This document shows positions 1 to 5,426 of a DNA stretch of 5,426 nucleotides, one piece after another. The stretch's first letter is position 1; each line of letters begins with the position of its first letter. Source of the DNA: Clostridia bacterium (GTDB lineage Bacteria > Bacillota_A > Clostridia > Oscillospirales > CAG-272); assembly GCA_017533545.1 (NCBI GenBank), contig JAFXHW010000188.1, forward strand, positions 1 to 5,426. The letters are read 5' to 3'. The notes beneath the pieces are model-generated. The model was not told the DNA's origin and searched no databases. It worked only from the letters and a program-made list of their open reading frames with translations. The translations under genes were made by a program, and so were the position numbers.

Positions 1-506
1 GCATGGAATATTTCAAGAGCACGAATGACTCGTTTCTTATTGTTTGGGTGGATCGCATCGGCCGACACGGGATCACATTCGCGAAGAAGTCGGTGAAGCT
101 CGGCGTTATCGATCTTTTCAAGCGATGCGCGATAGTCTTCATCGCTTGCGCCCGATGAAAATACATTGGCGGTAAGCACGGCATCGAGGTAGAGGCCGGT
201 GCCCCCGCAGAAAATTGCCCTTTTGCCGCGCGACTGTATATCATCGATCGCCCGCTCGGCTTCTTCCTTATAGTCGGAGACGTTGAATGATTCGTCGGGG
301 TCTTTTATATCGATAAGGTGATGCTTCACCCCGTCTGTTTCTTCAGCTGTCGGCTTTGCGGTTCCGATATCCATTTTGCGGTAAATCTGCATTGAATCAC
401 AGGATATTATCTCGCCGTCGATCTCTTTTGCCAAAGCGATGGACAACGCGGTTTTGCCCGATGCGGTCGGTCCGCAGATAGCTATGATCTTTGATCTGTC
501 AATCAT
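1..506 (-). CDS. miaA: tRNA dimethylallyltransferase MiaA, 3' end cut by window edge
   Basis: MiaA transfers the dimethylallyl group of DMAPP to N6 of adenosine 37, next to the anticodon, in tRNAs reading codons that start with U. The reading frame is open from the ATG (504-506 on the plus strand) to the window edge, 168 codons of a protein usually near 300 residues. Visible family motifs are the P-loop GPTASGKT (residues 12-19), DSMQIY (37-42, substrate tRNA contact region), GTAKP (48-52), HHLID (62-66), GGTGLYLDA (101-109) and IHPNNKKRVIRALEI (152-166). The ATG fits the usual start just before the P-loop and has AGG/AGGA about 8-10 nt upstream (514-516). It lies downstream of queA on the same strand, but a 177-bp gap filled by a repeat element separates them. 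No frameshift is seen. The identification is firm; only the C-terminal part is missing. Confidence 0.97.
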   Translation of the reverse strand, partial: MIDRSKIIAICGPTASGKTALSIALAKEIDGEIISCDSMQIYRKMDIGTAKPTAEETDGVKHHLIDIKDPDESFNVSDYKEEAERAIDDIQSRGKRAIFCGGTGLYLDAVLTANVFSSGASDEDYRASLEKIDNAELHRLLRECDPVSADAIHPNNKKRVIRALEIFH

Positions 507-529: not shown

Positions 530-543
530 ATAAACATCGCATC
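530..543 (+). repeat. 14-bp direct repeat, miaA-side copy (possible target-site duplication)
   Basis: ATAAACATCGCATC occurs here and again, identically, at 691-704. The bases outside the two copies differ. The two copies bracket exactly the hairpin-rich interval 544-690. On the minus strand this copy continues as CCACTGA, which would be an in-frame stop for queA if the interval were removed. Confidence 0.85.
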
Positions 544-563
544 CGCAAACCTTACGGCTTGCG
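544..563 (-). repeat. Terminal hairpin at miaA end of the element
   Basis: CGCAAACC, loop TTAC, GGCTTGCG on the plus strand. All positions pair except one A/C, which becomes a G-U wobble in minus-strand RNA, so the stem is better on the transcribed strand. Its outer base pair coincides with the edge of the 14-bp direct repeat. Confidence 0.7.
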
Positions 564-564
564 G

Positions 565-658
565 GAGGTAAAAAGTAAGAGTGAATAGTGAATAAGTTTG
601 GTGGATTTTCGCCAAAGGCGAAAATCTTCATTACCTCTTCACTTTTCACTATTACCTC
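565..658. repeat. Long imperfect inverted repeat built of AGTGAA-type units
   Basis: The arms 565-593 and 630-658 are complementary at 21 of 29 positions and enclose the perfect hairpin at 604-626, so the region can fold as one long stem. The left arm contains AGTGAAT twice in tandem (580-593). The right arm carries ATTACCTCTTCACT at 630-643, repeated at 651-664 with a 21-nt period. Spacings of 7 and 21 suggest a heptad-based repeat. Confidence 0.7.
604..626. repeat. Perfect central hairpin of the element
   Basis: GATTTTCGCC, loop AAA, GGCGAAAATC: ten perfect base pairs with a 3-nt loop. It is not followed by a T-run on either strand, so it is not an ordinary intrinsic terminator. It sits at the tip of the larger inverted repeat. 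Confidence 0.8.
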
Positions 659-664
659 TTCACT

Positions 665-689
665 GAATAAAGGACAACGTCCTTTATTC
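665..689 (-). repeat. Hairpin overlapping the queA stop codon
   Basis: GAATAAAGGAC, a 3-nt loop, GTCCTTTATTC: eleven perfect base pairs. The queA stop codon (684-686) lies in one arm. On the transcribed minus strand the bases after the stem are AGTGAAGAGG, not a T-run, so it is a poor intrinsic terminator, though it could protect the queA 3' end. Confidence 0.75.
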
Positions 690-1754
690 TATAAACATCG
701 CATCGCCGTACGAGAAGAATCTGTATTTTTCTCGTATGGCTTCGTTATATGCATTGAGCATGATCTCTCTTGAAGAGAGTGCAGAAACCAGCATTAAAAG
801 CGTACTTTCCGGCAGATGGAAATTGGTGATGAGTGCGTCGGTCGCCTTGAATTTATAGCCCGGATAAATAAATATTCCGGTATCGCCCGACACGGGATGA
901 ATGATGCCGTTTTCGTCGGCGGCGGATTCAAGCGTACGGCAGGAGGTCGTGCCGACGGCAATGATCCTTCCCTTTCGGTTATTGATCTTTTCGGCGGCCT
1001 CGGGAGTGACGCAAATGTACTCGGTATGCATAACGTGGTCGGCAACCTCGTCCTCCTTTACGGGACGGAATGTACCAAGTCCGACGTGGAGCAGCACCGG
1101 TACTATCTCGGCGCCTTTTTGTCTGATCATATCAAGAAGCTCGGGAGTAAAATGAAGCCCCGCGGTGGGAGCTGCGGCAGATCCGCGTTCGCGGGCGTAG
1201 ACAGTCTGGTACCTCGCAGGATCTGACGCGCGCGAAGTTATATAGGGGGGCAAGGGCATGCTTCCGACGCGGTCGAGAATCGAATATATGTTGTCGCCCT
1301 CGTATGAAAAGCGGAGTATTTTGCATCCGTCCTCGCTGTCACCCATTACTGTTGCGCGCAAAAGTCCCTCTCCGTAGACGATCTCGGTGCCGATTTTTGC
1401 ACGTCGTCCCGGCTTTAGGAGACATTCCCATGTATCAAGCTCAACTTGACGCAAAAGAAGGGTTTCCATAGCAATTCCCGTGCTCTCCTTTATGCCCATC
1501 AGGCGGGCGGGAATAACCTTGGTATCGTTTATAACGAGCACATCGCCCTCGTTGATGTAATCGACAATATCGCGGAAAATACGGTGTTCTGTCTTTCCGT
1601 CCTCGCGGGATACGCACATAAGACGGGACATATCGCGCTTTTCGGCGGGAGTCTGGGCGATAAGCTCCTCCGGCAGATCATAGTAAAAATCCGATCGCTT
1701 CAAATCGGTGGGTGTGAGCTCGTTTCTGATTACGTTGTTTTTTGAGTTATTCAT
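684..1754 (-). CDS. queA: S-adenosylmethionine:tRNA ribosyltransferase-isomerase QueA
   Basis: QueA moves the ribosyl moiety of S-adenosylmethionine onto preQ1 already in the anticodon wobble position of tRNA, giving epoxyqueuosine, the penultimate step of queuosine synthesis. The 356-residue protein shows the family signatures in order: DLPEELIAQTP (26-36), INDTKVIPARL (75-85), LKPGRRAKIG (113-122), LPPYI (168-172), a tract from RYQTVYARE to PTAGLHF (181-202), HVGLGTFRPV (223-232), VGTTSCRTLES (267-277) and TNFHLPESTLLML (310-322). The ATG at 1752-1754 has a GGAAGAAG ribosome binding site. It gives about 17 residues more than the usual family start near LKRSDF; a TTG at that leucine is possible but lacks a good site. 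The final Glu codon and TAA come from the adjoining repeat element. Neighbouring miaA suggests a tRNA-modification unit. Confidence 0.98.
   Translation of the reverse strand: MNNSKNNVIRNELTPTDLKRSDFYYDLPEELIAQTPAEKRDMSRLMCVSREDGKTEHRIFRDIVDYINEGDVLVINDTKVIPARLMGIKESTGIAMETLLLRQVELDTWECLLKPGRRAKIGTEIVYGEGLLRATVMGDSEDGCKILRFSYEGDNIYSILDRVGSMPLPPYITSRASDPARYQTVYARERGSAAAPTAGLHFTPELLDMIRQKGAEIVPVLLHVGLGTFRPVKEDEVADHVMHTEYICVTPEAAEKINNRKGRIIAVGTTSCRTLESAADENGIIHPVSGDTGIFIYPGYKFKATDALITNFHLPESTLLMLVSALSSREIMLNAYNEAIREKYRFFSYGDAMFIE
691..704 (+). repeat. 14-bp direct repeat, queA-side copy
   Basis: This is identical to 530-543. In queA it encodes the end of GDAMFI on the minus strand. The copy therefore lies within coding sequence, while its twin lies just upstream of the miaA ribosome binding site. 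Confidence 0.85.
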
Positions 1755-1830: not shown

Positions 1831-1836
1831 AATGGC

Positions 1837-2017
1837 AGATAGAGGTCGCGGCAACGATCAGTAGGTTTTTTCACCGAAAGGCAATGCCGCCGAAGATGTT
1901 TTGGTTTGAAATATCTGGGACGCAGGTGAATAATCTGCGGACTGTCATCATAAAAGGCAAGGTTTTTTCATATATCTGCATAATGAAAACCGTTTTGCCG
2001 TCTGATGGAGTGCTATC
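1837..2017 (+). promoter_or_regulatory. Lysine riboswitch (L box) aptamer
   Basis: This leader RNA binds lysine and controls dapA-dapB. The conserved blocks of the lysine riboswitch family (Rfam RF00168) appear in order: GATAGAGGTCGCG (from 1838), CAGTA (1859-1863), GCCGAAG (1889-1895), CTGGG (1915-1919), GGACTGTCA (1939-1947) and GGAGTGCTATC (2007-2017). P1 can form between GATAG (1838-1842) and CTATC (2013-2017). A CGCAG/CTGCG stem (1921-1925 with 1935-1939) and a long hairpin GGCAAGGTTTT...AAAACCGTTTTGCC (1956-1999) match expected arms. Its position between a good promoter and dapA fits exactly. It is the expected regulator for this operon; the call rests on motif recognition, not on a covariance-model search. 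Confidence 0.93.
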
Positions 2018-2095
2018 ATGTAAATGAATAAAATACGCTCGTGCTTTGTCGAAAAAACGCAAAACACCATAGTGTATATTATATTACATGTATAG
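2013..2095 (+). promoter_or_regulatory. Putative antiterminator helix of the lysine riboswitch
   Basis: CTATCATGTAA (2013-2023), which includes the 3' strand of P1, is complementary to TTACATGTATAG (2084-2095) with one bulged base. The second strand reaches into the foot of the terminator (A2094, G2095). Pairing of this helix and of P1 exclude each other, which gives a simple on-state when lysine is absent. Overlap with the terminator stem is only at its base, so disruption of the terminator may be partly steric. The mechanism is inferred from base pairing. Confidence 0.5.
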
Positions 2096-3885: not shown

Positions 3886-3969
3886 CGATTTGTGGTTTAA
3901 ATGCGCAATATTTTTTACTTAACTGTGTATAAATTCAAAAATATTAACAAAATATTCTTTATTTTTGGG

Positions 3970-4005
3970 GCGCGATGTTATATACTAAACGTATATGCAT
4001 CGCGC
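3970..4005. terminator. Strong palindrome after dapB: terminator or operator
   Basis: GCGCGATG (3970-3977) pairs perfectly with CATCGCGC (3998-4005). Inside it ATATAC (3980-3985) pairs with GTATAT (3991-3996) around the loop TAAAC. On the plus strand it is followed by TTTGCGTTT, a weak T-rich tract, 84 nt after the dapB stop, so it could end the dapAB transcript. It also contains TATACT (3981-3986), a possible -10 box for the mgtE leader, though no good -35 is seen at the right distance. In that case it would be a repressor operator. The upstream stretch 3886-3969 is AT-rich and shows nothing else. Confidence 0.55.
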
Positions 4006-4022
4006 TTTGCGTTTGCAAAAAC

Positions 4023-4156
4023 TACCGAAAGAGGTGAAGATCATGGACGCTGGAGGCGGTCGAAGTAGGTCGCAGTTGTTATGCCAAAGCTCATACATGT
4101 CGGCGTCAGTAAACGATCTTTGCCGATTTGTTTTTCTTCGGTAATTTATACCGAAG
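4023..4156 (+). promoter_or_regulatory. Structured leader RNA upstream of mgtE (riboswitch-like)
   Basis: Nested helices can form. P1 is TACCGAA (4023-4029) with TTCGGTA (4137-4143). P2 is GGTGAAGATC (4033-4042) with GATCTTTGCC (4115-4124), ten pairs including two G-U. P3 is 4046-4053 with 4100-4107, eight pairs including two G-U. They enclose an unresolved inner domain of about 46 nt. The 3' strand of P1 pairs equally well with TACCGAAG (4149-4156), so an enclosed and an open fold exclude each other, as in riboswitches. AGGTGA near the 5' side and CAGTAAACGATCT on the 3' side resemble the edges of the M-box magnesium riboswitch (Rfam RF00380), but the M-box core is not recognisable. The ligand is unknown; Mg2+ is a guess from the mgtE context. 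Confidence 0.55.
4043..4144 (+). CDS. Possible 33-residue leader peptide upstream of mgtE
   Basis: ATG at 4043 follows GAGGTG (4031-4036) with 6-nt spacing, a very good ribosome binding site. The frame runs 33 codons to TAA at 4142-4144. The peptide begins MDAGGGRSRS and contains SSYMSASVND; it is rich in Ser and Arg, with no membrane segment, and I recognise no family. The ribosome binding site lies in the 5' strand of P2 and the stop lies in the P1/alternative-hairpin strand, so translation would remodel the leader RNA. It could be an attenuation peptide, as magnesium transporter genes in some bacteria use. Or it could be a chance frame inside a structured RNA. Confidence 0.33.
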   Translation: MDAGGGRSRSQLLCQSSYMSASVNDLCRFVFLR

Positions 4157-4222
4157 CACCAATTTAATATTGTTTTTAAGGGCTTTTACATAACAACGCA
4201 GGACTTATACTGCTTCCCTCTC

Positions 4223-4251
4223 GCCGCGATTCTTTTAAGATCACGGCTTTT
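4223..4251 (+). terminator. Terminator-like hairpin 1 in mgtE leader
   Basis: GCCG (4223-4226) with CGGC (4244-4247), continued by GA/TC and TCTT/AAGA around a TT loop, with one C/A mismatch and one bulge. TTTT (4248-4251) follows directly. It lies between the structured leader and mgtE, where an attenuator would be expected. The preceding stretch 4157-4222 holds no clear structure. Confidence 0.45.
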
Positions 4252-4276
4252 GCGGGTATTTCTTTTATCCGCTTTT
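4252..4276 (+). terminator. Terminator-like hairpin 2 in mgtE leader
   Basis: GCGGGTA (4252-4258) pairs with TATCCGC (4266-4272), seven pairs including one G-U, around a T-rich 7-nt loop. TTTT (4273-4276) follows. It abuts hairpin 1 and ends 15 nt before the mgtE ribosome binding site. The stem is modest, so termination strength is uncertain. Confidence 0.45.
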
Positions 4277-4304
4277 ACCACTATTTTTGAGAGGAGTGTT
4301 TACA

Positions 4305-5426
4305 ATGGAAGAGGCCCTTGTTTTAATTGAAGAAAAGCGCTTTCGCGAGCTTCGTGAGATGCTCTGCGAATGGGAACCCGCCGATATCGCATCTCTGCTT
4401 GCCACCCTGCCCGACGACAGACTTGTTGTAATTTTCCGTCTGTTGCCCAAGGAGATCGCGGCAGAGGTATTCGTTGAGATGGATGCCGACGCTGAAGAGC
4501 TGCTCATCGGCGCATACAGTGACTCCGAGCTTCGTGAGGTTATCAATCTGCTCTTCATGGACGATACCGTCGACATCATCGAAGAGATGCCCGCCAATGT
4601 TGTCAGCCGTATGCTTAAAGCGGTCACCCCCGACAAGCGTTTGCTTATCAACGAGCTGCTTAAATATCCCGAATCAACTGCGGGCAGCGTTATGACCACC
4701 GAGTATATCGTCCTTCGCGCCGACATGACAGTTGACGATGCAATGAAGCGTATCCGCCGTACCGGTATATCAAAAGAGACCGTTTATACCTGCTACGTCA
4801 CCGATCCGCGCCGACGTCTTATCGGATACATCGACGCGGTCACATTGATGATCGCCGATCCGGACGAGCTCATTGGCGACCTTATGGAAACCTCGGTAAT
4901 ATCCGCAAAAACGACCGACAACAAAGAGGACACCGCCGCCGATATTCAAAAATACGACCTTCTTGCTCTGCCCGTTGTTGACGGTGAAAACCGTCTCGTG
5001 GGCATTATCACGGTTGACGACGCTATCGACGTTATCACCGAGGCAAACGAGGACGACTTCGCTATCATGTCGGCTATGCAGCCTATCGAGGAAACGTATT
5101 TCAAAACGTCCGTCCTCACGCATGCGAAAAACCGCATTATCTGGCTTGTTATCCTCATGCTTTCGGCGAGCATTTCGGGTATCATCATAACCCACTACGA
5201 AAACACATTTGCGACAGTTCCGATACTCGTTTCCTTTATCCCAATGCTTATGAACACGGGCGGTAACTGCGGCTCGCAGTCGTCGACAATGATCATCCGC
5301 GGACTTGCAACCGACGAAATCAGCCCATCCGATTTTCTCCGAGCCCTCTTTAAGGAATTCAGAATAGGAGTGCTTATCGGCGCGGCCCTTTTCGTTGTCG
5401 GATTCGTTCAGATAATGATCCAGCAA
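4305..5426 (+). CDS. mgtE: Magnesium transporter MgtE, 3' end cut by window edge
   Basis: MgtE is a homodimeric, Mg2+-gated Mg2+ channel of the cytoplasmic membrane; its cytosolic domains close the pore when internal Mg2+ is high. The open frame covers 374 residues of a protein near 450. The acidic helical N domain spans about 15-118, then YPESTAGSVMTTEYI (121-135) leads into CBS domain 1 (about 130-190) and CBS domain 2 (about 194-250, with ALPVVDGENRLVGIITVDD at 221-239). A linker resembling the plug helix follows (about 251-275), then membrane segments at about 279-298, 303-330 and 353-372. The pore-domain signature MNTGGNCGSQSS (316-327) and IIRGLA (330-335) identify the family. The ATG has AGGAG at 4292-4296, 8 nt upstream. 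The last two or so membrane segments lie beyond the window. The long structured leader suggests control before translation. Confidence 0.97.
   Translation, partial: MEEALVLIEEKRFRELREMLCEWEPADIASLLATLPDDRLVVIFRLLPKEIAAEVFVEMDADAEELLIGAYSDSELREVINLLFMDDTVDIIEEMPANVVSRMLKAVTPDKRLLINELLKYPESTAGSVMTTEYIVLRADMTVDDAMKRIRRTGISKETVYTCYVTDPRRRLIGYIDAVTLMIADPDELIGDLMETSVISAKTTDNKEDTAADIQKYDLLALPVVDGENRLVGIITVDDAIDVITEANEDDFAIMSAMQPIEETYFKTSVLTHAKNRIIWLVILMLSASISGIIITHYENTFATVPILVSFIPMLMNTGGNCGSQSSTMIIRGLATDEISPSDFLRALFKEFRIGVLIGAALFVVGFVQIMIQQ

Follow-up and report, generated by a model that had tools for sequence, protein, structure and literature searches.

The region ahead of mgtE in the window (the whole 5,426-nucleotide stretch of clostridial DNA analysed here) is probably a leader-peptide switch of that gene, judging from its sequence and from related leaders. 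A short translated leader is a more likely reading of it than a riboswitch. The region contains a leader open reading frame (uORF) whose ATG sits five bases past its Shine-Dalgarno sequence (SD). This frame was absent from an earlier, sequence-only reading of the same DNA, which had described three nested helices and proposed a riboswitch-like mgtE leader. The features discussed here, helices P1 to P3 included, are:

4023 to 4029 (+): TACCGAA, first copy, 5' strand of P1; 7 pairs with TTCGGTA at 4137-4143
4030 to 4037 (+): AGAGGTGA, uORF SD, strong, containing AGGTGA; read from the sequence
4033 to 4042 (+): GGTGAAGATC, 5' strand of P2, overlapping the uORF SD; 10 pairs with GATCTTTGCC, two of them G-U
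4043 to 4144 (+): leader ORF MDAGGGRSRSQLLCQSSYMSASVNDLCRFVFLR, 33 codons plus TAA (ATG at 4043, TAA at 4142-4144)
4046 to 4048 (+): GAC, codon of Asp2; in mgtE leaders, SD-led frames of 15-60 aa have Asp in second place more often than any other residue
4046 to 4053 (+): GACGCTGG, start-region strand (A) of P3; 8 pairs with TCGGCGTC, two of them G-U
4052 to 4057 (+): GGA GGC, SD-like Gly-Gly codons; relatives with Gly-Gly here mostly have GGAGGT
4061 to 4063 (+): CGA, arginine codon 7; the Arg codon at this position is CGA in 17 of 18 cases among 61 uORFs
4095 to 4131 (+): terminator-like hairpin inside the uORF, using strand B and followed by TTTTCTTC; -11.7 kcal/mol, no shuffle control
4100 to 4107 (+): TCGGCGTC, 3' strand (B) of P3, partner of GACGCTGG
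4115 to 4124 (+): GATCTTTGCC, 3' strand of P2, partner of GGTGAAGATC
4137 to 4143 (+): TTCGGTA, common to two exclusive helices, overlapping the uORF stop codon
4149 to 4156 (+): TACCGAAG, second copy, alternative partner of TTCGGTA directly 3' of the uORF stop
4217 to 4222 (+): CCTCTC, candidate anti-SD against GAGAGG at 4289-4294, from predicted folds
4223 to 4251 (+): weak terminator-like hairpin GCCGCGAT..ATCACGGC plus TTTT, with one mismatch; read from the sequence
4292 to 4296 (+): AGGAG, mgtE SD; predicted unpaired probability 0.30
4305 to 5426 (+): mgtE, 5' part, continuing past the window end; Pfam MgtE_N, CBS and MgtE

We compared this leader with mgtE leaders from two samples. A protein search for MgtE relatives supplied the best 80 of 122 loci. 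The second sample consisted of 391 genomes of one class, presumably Clostridia because an Oscillospiraceae locus led to the centre of the class, and 220 of these have an mgtE at E<=1e-70. Together with the window, the 80 loci, 38 further leaders (L103-L135, including second mgtE copies) and another 80 (L136-L215) made 199 leaders; dropping three shorter than 150 nt left 196. The samples are non-random (the best 80 of 122 loci; for L136-L215, 80 of at least that many mgtE places listed), and p-values are overstated because the leaders are related. The best identity to the window's MgtE is 55% among the best 80 of 122 and 58% among the matches listed from the 391 genomes. The closest relatives of the window, the sources of DapA proteins at 95% and 87% identity whose contigs do not exceed 1369 and 2506 bases, lie outside all leader comparisons. 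A DNA similarity search with the leader in 16 genomes gave short, weak matches only (best E 0.004).

We scored as a uORF any ATG or GTG that has an SD ahead of it and Asp as its next codon and that begins a frame of 15-60 aa, no more than 400 nt from mgtE. Such M/V-Asp uORFs were present in 63 of the 196 leaders versus 2 of 196 on the reverse strand; shuffled leaders (20 rounds) gave a mean of 3.2 per round and a maximum of 8. The count of 63 includes L161 and L191, which repeat L061 and L044; their removal leaves 61 uORFs, among which further duplicates between the two collections may remain. When Asp was not required, it was still the top second residue (64 of 193 SD-led frames of 15-60 aa, the next being Leu with 20); on the reverse strand Asp came second in 2 of 64 SD-led short frames. 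Within the uORF set, the SD, Asp2 and the frame length are not independent evidence because they were used to select it. The CGA codon, the start helix and the burial of the mgtE SD are.

The hosts of this family are Clostridia and two Holdemania. Its peptides, 21-44 aa long, resemble one another in their N-termini (M/V-D with Gly, Ser or Pro to follow) and have variable C-termini; a CGA codon occurs at position 7 or 11-14, and GAGGTGA-type SDs stand ahead of many of the frames. Typing by regular expression placed 35 of the 61 uORFs in the MDAG type ([MV]D[ASTGV][GA]), the type of the window: MDAG or alike, then Gly, Ser or Asn, often followed by (P)GRS. These uORFs stop 27-208 nt ahead of the mgtE SD in 30/33 cases. 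The Pro type (MDPGPLPS, MDYDPLP, MDAYPGR and others) stops 0-17 nt ahead of it in 15/25. L104, L141 and L168 fit both rules. Across the 61 uORFs, 27 have a Pro in positions 3-8 and 10 have a second acidic residue there.

Three of the window's four best DapA matches fall in one order; the four genomes of it covered here all have an SD-led uORF, with the N-termini MDTADSTAATVPGRSRQ, MDAGPCRSRID, MDPIPSRSRRF and MDNIPGRSSL. A DNA pattern for the class, built from an SD, ATG, an Asp codon and additional codons, matched 16 times in the 391 genomes and 0 times in a reversed control, and all 16 matches lie directly upstream of an mgtE on the same contig and strand. Recovery of these leaders was expected because the pattern was derived from them; the absence of other matches was not. 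The window's uORF itself falls outside the pattern, with Gly6 instead of Ser/Asn. Three spirochaete loci (L029, L068 and L080) carry SD-led, Asp/Pro-rich uORFs before mgtE (DPDSDPDSSKN, DTDSDPYGSKKN and NPDSDPYSSKN), perhaps a separate and more MgtL-like type.

The conservation of these leaders follows the reading frame. Of the 49 uORFs with an Arg among their first 18 residues, 40 use CGA for the first one; elsewhere, CGA accounts for 8 of 88 later uORF Arg codons and for 9.0% of 1554 Arg codons in the mgtE genes. Arg is encoded by CGA in 17 of 18 cases at codon 7 and in 25 of 34 at codons 11-14. By frame, CGA words in codons 3-20 number 46/7/10, the 46 being those in the uORF frame, and the 14 CGAAGTA words within uORFs lie at six spacings from the ATG, all multiples of three. 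Gly-Gly at codons 4-5 (15 uORFs) is written GGAGGT in 10, GGAGGC in 2 and otherwise in 3. Substitutions at codon positions 1/2/3 (codons 2-10, ten close-homolog groups) number 28/33/49, a weak result because the comparison was ungapped and pairwise. An SD-led short ORF is conserved before mgtE under coding-frame constraint, as expected of a leader peptide, and these patterns indicate that its translation is under selection. An RNA-only element is disfavoured because such frame adherence is not expected of it. The sequence-only reading had named conservation that amounts to a codon pattern as counting against its proposal; this is largely what is seen, with CGA held in frame and SD-led starts carrying Asp2.

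Another explanation is that the uORF encodes a small protein with a function of its own, on MgtE or elsewhere, and no switch in cis. Its N-terminus is conserved and its gene adjoins mgtE, yet the C-terminus and the length vary, a particular rare codon is kept, the pairing of the start region described below would not be expected, and the window peptide matches no Pfam family. We consider this explanation very unlikely. Leader peptides for amino acids are classical, and CGA is the most constrained feature we found, so an attenuator answering arginyl-tRNA, CGA decoding capacity or the general translation rate has also to be weighed. The controlled gene, however, belongs to a Mg2+ transporter family, and the CGA-marked position comprises one or two codons, not a run. 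Sensing of Arg would moreover leave the near-absence of other Arg codons at codon 7 (17/18 CGA) unexplained. A signal other than Mg2+ therefore strikes us as quite unlikely.

The Rfam scans covered the window and the 80 leaders L136-L215. Across 4227 families, only the lysine riboswitch before dapA reached its gathering score in the window (RF00168, 78.8 bits, 1832-2023 (+), directly upstream of dapA-dapB), an ordinary instance. Scanning 3900-4310 alone gave two chance-level matches, bxd_4 (E 5.8) and rli43 (E 9.3), and no family at threshold. Degenerate repeats CCTCTTCACT / AGTGAATAGTGAATA lie between miaA and queA (window 540-690), with only a sub-threshold, hairpin-like Rfam match, and L171 has a TPP riboswitch on the opposite strand (207-316 (-)), upstream of its mgtE leader.

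The M-box riboswitch (RF00380) sits before mgtE in related bacteria, as the window leader does, and the sequence-only reading had pointed to M-box words at the leader edges, raising the prospect of a divergent or shortened M-box. Genuine M-boxes were found in 10 of the 80 mgtE leaders L136-L215, at 94-155 bits. The leader of the window, in contrast, gave no RF00380 match at E<=10, either in the whole window or in 3900-4310 alone; its edge word AGGTGA is a piece of the uORF SD, and no M-box occurs in any of the 27 leaders of MDAG type included in that scan of 80. The M-box is a metal-binding aptamer, whereas the window leader has no match to its model. Membership in that family is thus unsupported, and we regard it as extremely improbable. 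Six of the ten M-box leaders (L158, L167, L194, L199, L212 and L215) have, between the M-box and mgtE, a PLP-type uORF (VDPGPLPS, for example), apparently two Mg2+-linked elements in tandem.

What structure does the window leader have? The strands of the three helices described in the sequence-only reading (7, 10 and 8 pairs) are all present, and they lie within the uORF or span it: P2 lies over the SD, and P3 pairs codons 2-4 with a segment further along the frame. For the 3' strand of P1, the second partner is likewise real (4149-4155, or 8 pairs as 4136-4143/4149-4156) and makes exclusive folds possible. The minimum-energy fold of 4023-4147 includes P1; when the downstream partner is added, the exclusive hairpin wins. 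A 7-mer with two perfect partners arose in 0.3% of 2000 dinucleotide shuffles, in a test picked post hoc; the same shuffles contained an 8-bp Watson-Crick helix in 8.9% and a 7-bp helix in 32.7%. The overall fold is weak and ordinary versus shuffles: -36 kcal/mol for 4023-4147 (z -1.52, 12 of 200 shuffles equally good) and -41 kcal/mol with the downstream partner (z -1.80, 9 of 200). P3 of the window (8 bp) is not significant alone (p=0.15 and 0.31 in two shuffle tests).

Start-region pairing stands out in the MDAG-type relatives. With positions -2 to +11 around the uORF start taken as one strand, 13 of the 35 MDAG-type leaders form a helix of 10 bp or more between it and a segment further along the uORF, versus 0.9 of 35 expected from dinucleotide shuffles; in non-MDAG leaders this was 1 of 26 versus 0.6. 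When start strands were swapped for the differing ones of relatives, the mean longest helix fell from 8.1 to 7.0, and the own strand gave the longer helix in 46 of 61 uORFs (p=5.7e-6). The helix was individually significant (p<=0.05) in 11 of 27 leaders with GACGC versus 5 of 34 others (L144 GATAC, L181 GACAC, L171 GACGT, L148 and L189 GATTC); the remaining 29 of the 34 had no significant start helix. The folds do not support a general thermodynamic occlusion of the uORF start: the accessibility of the start region was no lower than with shuffled 3' parts (0.372 versus 0.392, p=0.71). RNA structure seems also to be under selection in the MDAG subclass. A lack of covariation, which the sequence-only reading had named as counting against its helices, is not what this subclass shows, since its P3-type start helix beats both the shuffles and the swap test.

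This retained helix, the two-partner strand of the window and the recurrent words GGGCGAAGT (6) and GGACGAAGT (3) are what an unrecognised riboswitch would offer as evidence. The conserved nucleotides (GGAGGTAGT, GGGCGAAGTA) and the start helix would form its aptamer, and the frame would be incidental or belong to the expression platform. Such an aptamer does not account for CGA words held to the uORF frame (46/7/10), for in-uORF CGAAGTA words that keep multiples of three from the ATG at six spacings, or for the SD-led starts; no Rfam family reaches threshold, and the third-position excess of substitutions (28/33/49) points the same way, albeit weakly. We judge a riboswitch of this kind unlikely. 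The earlier proposal is retained in part: the leader is conserved and apparently undescribed, may adopt exclusive folds and is plausibly linked to Mg2+, but an RNA aptamer as its sensor is unsupported.

A leader-peptide switch needs an output, and predicted folds point to the SD of mgtE. In MDAG-type leaders its unpaired probability is 0.21 versus 0.33 in shuffled sequences (p=0.001), and it lies below 0.1 in 13 of 35 (5.0 expected). This SD is also more buried than in 109 mgtE leaders lacking an Asp2 uORF (p=1.9e-4). With an in silico ribosome at the uORF start versus its stop, the unpaired probability of the mgtE SD went up by at least 0.2 in 7 of 61 leaders; the window is outside those seven (predicted 0.18 at the start versus 0.30 at the stop). 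A partner of strand B (strand C) competing with the start helix was found at p<=0.05 in 10 of 59 leaders, with ~3 expected, and the competing B:C partner lies within 15 nt of the uORF stop in 9 of the 10, as does the doubled TTCGGTA partner of the window. The start helix itself is significant in only three of those ten (L134, L148 and L186), and the B:C pairing of the window is not significant (p=0.61).

Of 63 leaders, 29 have a terminator-like hairpin downstream of the uORF start (no shuffle control), and an intrinsic terminator as universal platform is thus unsupported. Also seen are SD burial and, in 15/25 of the Pro type, a uORF whose stop comes 0-17 nt ahead of the mgtE SD. In the window, a consensus terminator scan gave only 4056-4073, at chance level; the hairpins at 4095-4131 and 4223-4251 were absent from its output, the latter being embedded in a wider hairpin (4216-4256, -12.5 kcal/mol, without shuffle control). 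L158 and L194 have hairpins near the uORF stop, directly ahead of the mgtE SD (GACAGGGTCAT:ATGACCCTGTC and TACGGGGTCA:TGACCCTGTA), whose letters differ while the pairing is kept.

A switch by ribosome frailty, following the logic of mgtQ/mgtL, appears to be the best-supported reading of these leaders. At adequate Mg2+, ribosomes would translate the uORF through, and the downstream RNA would fold so that mgtE is off, by a buried SD or, in some members, a terminator. At low Mg2+, ribosomes would initiate the uORF but slow or drop off early, at weak points that may include the acidic residue 2, Pro or Gly, the slow CGA codon and the SD-like GGAGGT. The downstream strands could then re-pair (in the window, TTCGGTA with its two partners) and mgtE would be expressed. 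We infer the Mg2+ step from the identity of the gene and from the Salmonella precedents. The clostridial uORFs combine Asp2, CGA, often Pro or SD-like Gly codons, pairing of the start and burial of the mgtE SD. Since second acidic residues are rare (10/61), CGA may be the main weak point.

Several known systems are comparable. In Salmonella mgtQ (mgtCBRU), the Asp2 and Glu5 codons destabilise the ribosome; the frame overlaps alternative stem-loops (1:2/3:4 or 2:3), the buried RBS of mgtB is under its control, and destabilising codons in it raise transporter output (PMC8092293). Ribosomes on mgtQ must both start and falter because removal of the start codon lowers mgtB (PMC8092293). The clostridial leaders share with it a short SD-led ORF before a Mg2+ transporter gene, Asp2, overlapping (here predicted) RNA stems and a buried transporter RBS. 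They differ in length (21-44 codons versus 8), in gene (mgtE versus mgtB), in their conserved CGA and in mostly having no second acidic residue where mgtQ, an intergenic ORF of enterobacteria, has Asp2 and Glu5. The mgtL ORF of mgtA likewise leads a Mg2+ importer gene with an early destabilising segment, EPDP (PMC11282234, PMC11552253), and ribosomes drop off this ORF at limiting Mg2+ (PMC11282234). Some relatives here have similar segments (DPGPLPS, DPLP, DPIP), whereas the window peptide has no Pro; mgtL acts via Rho-dependent termination, whereas here SD burial or intrinsic-terminator-like hairpins are predicted. The window peptide, with neither Pro nor another acidic residue at positions 3-8, thus carries the known destabilising motif only in part.

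Other described leaders are more distant. The corL uORF of corA has a conserved N-terminus before a Mg2+ channel gene, and more of its translation means less channel; by its description as enterobacterial with a UUG start, it is set apart from the clostridial uORFs (PMC11552253). The mgtE motif of Thioalkalivibrio is also a candidate structured mgtE leader, but as described it is exclusive to that genus and, rather than a uORF, a strong candidate riboswitch that covers the start of mgtE (PMC11109978). The rv1805A uORF is likewise conserved in a Mg2+-regulated leader; it follows a mycobacterial M-box that controls it, however, and lies upstream of pe20 (PMC12810186).

Decoding of CGA relies on an inosine-adenine wobble. 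A tentative and so far rather doubtful extension of the ribosome-frailty reading would make decoding itself the sensor: one conserved, rare CGA (codon 7 or 11-14) behind Asp2 would be a calibrated weak point whose decoding fails as Mg2+ falls. How stable the ribosome is at that one codon would then signal Mg2+ to mgtE, in Clostridia leaders without an M-box and in a family that is not known to share descent with MgtL or MgtQ. In a his-leader assay, CGA was translated significantly slower than CGU and CGC, and the authors mention that SD-like codon pairs, too, may slow translation (PMC4046918).

In the largely open-access literature on mgtE and Mg2+-transporter leader peptides and uORFs, preprints being outside its scope, we found no description of an mgtE uORF family in Clostridia; the comparison takes in 2 of the 8 uORF candidates of PMC11109978. 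Switches of this kind are known. What appears to be new is the family, together with its gene, its hosts and the frame-fixed CGA. Leaders of this type can pass for riboswitches. In the papers covered here, sensing of Mg2+ through translation of a leader peptide is mainly enterobacterial (mgtL, mgtQ and corL). If our reading is true, the frame-fixed CGA would be a sharp, testable feature at the level of a codon, and the family would suggest that the frailty of the ribosome has served bacteria as a Mg2+ gauge more than once.
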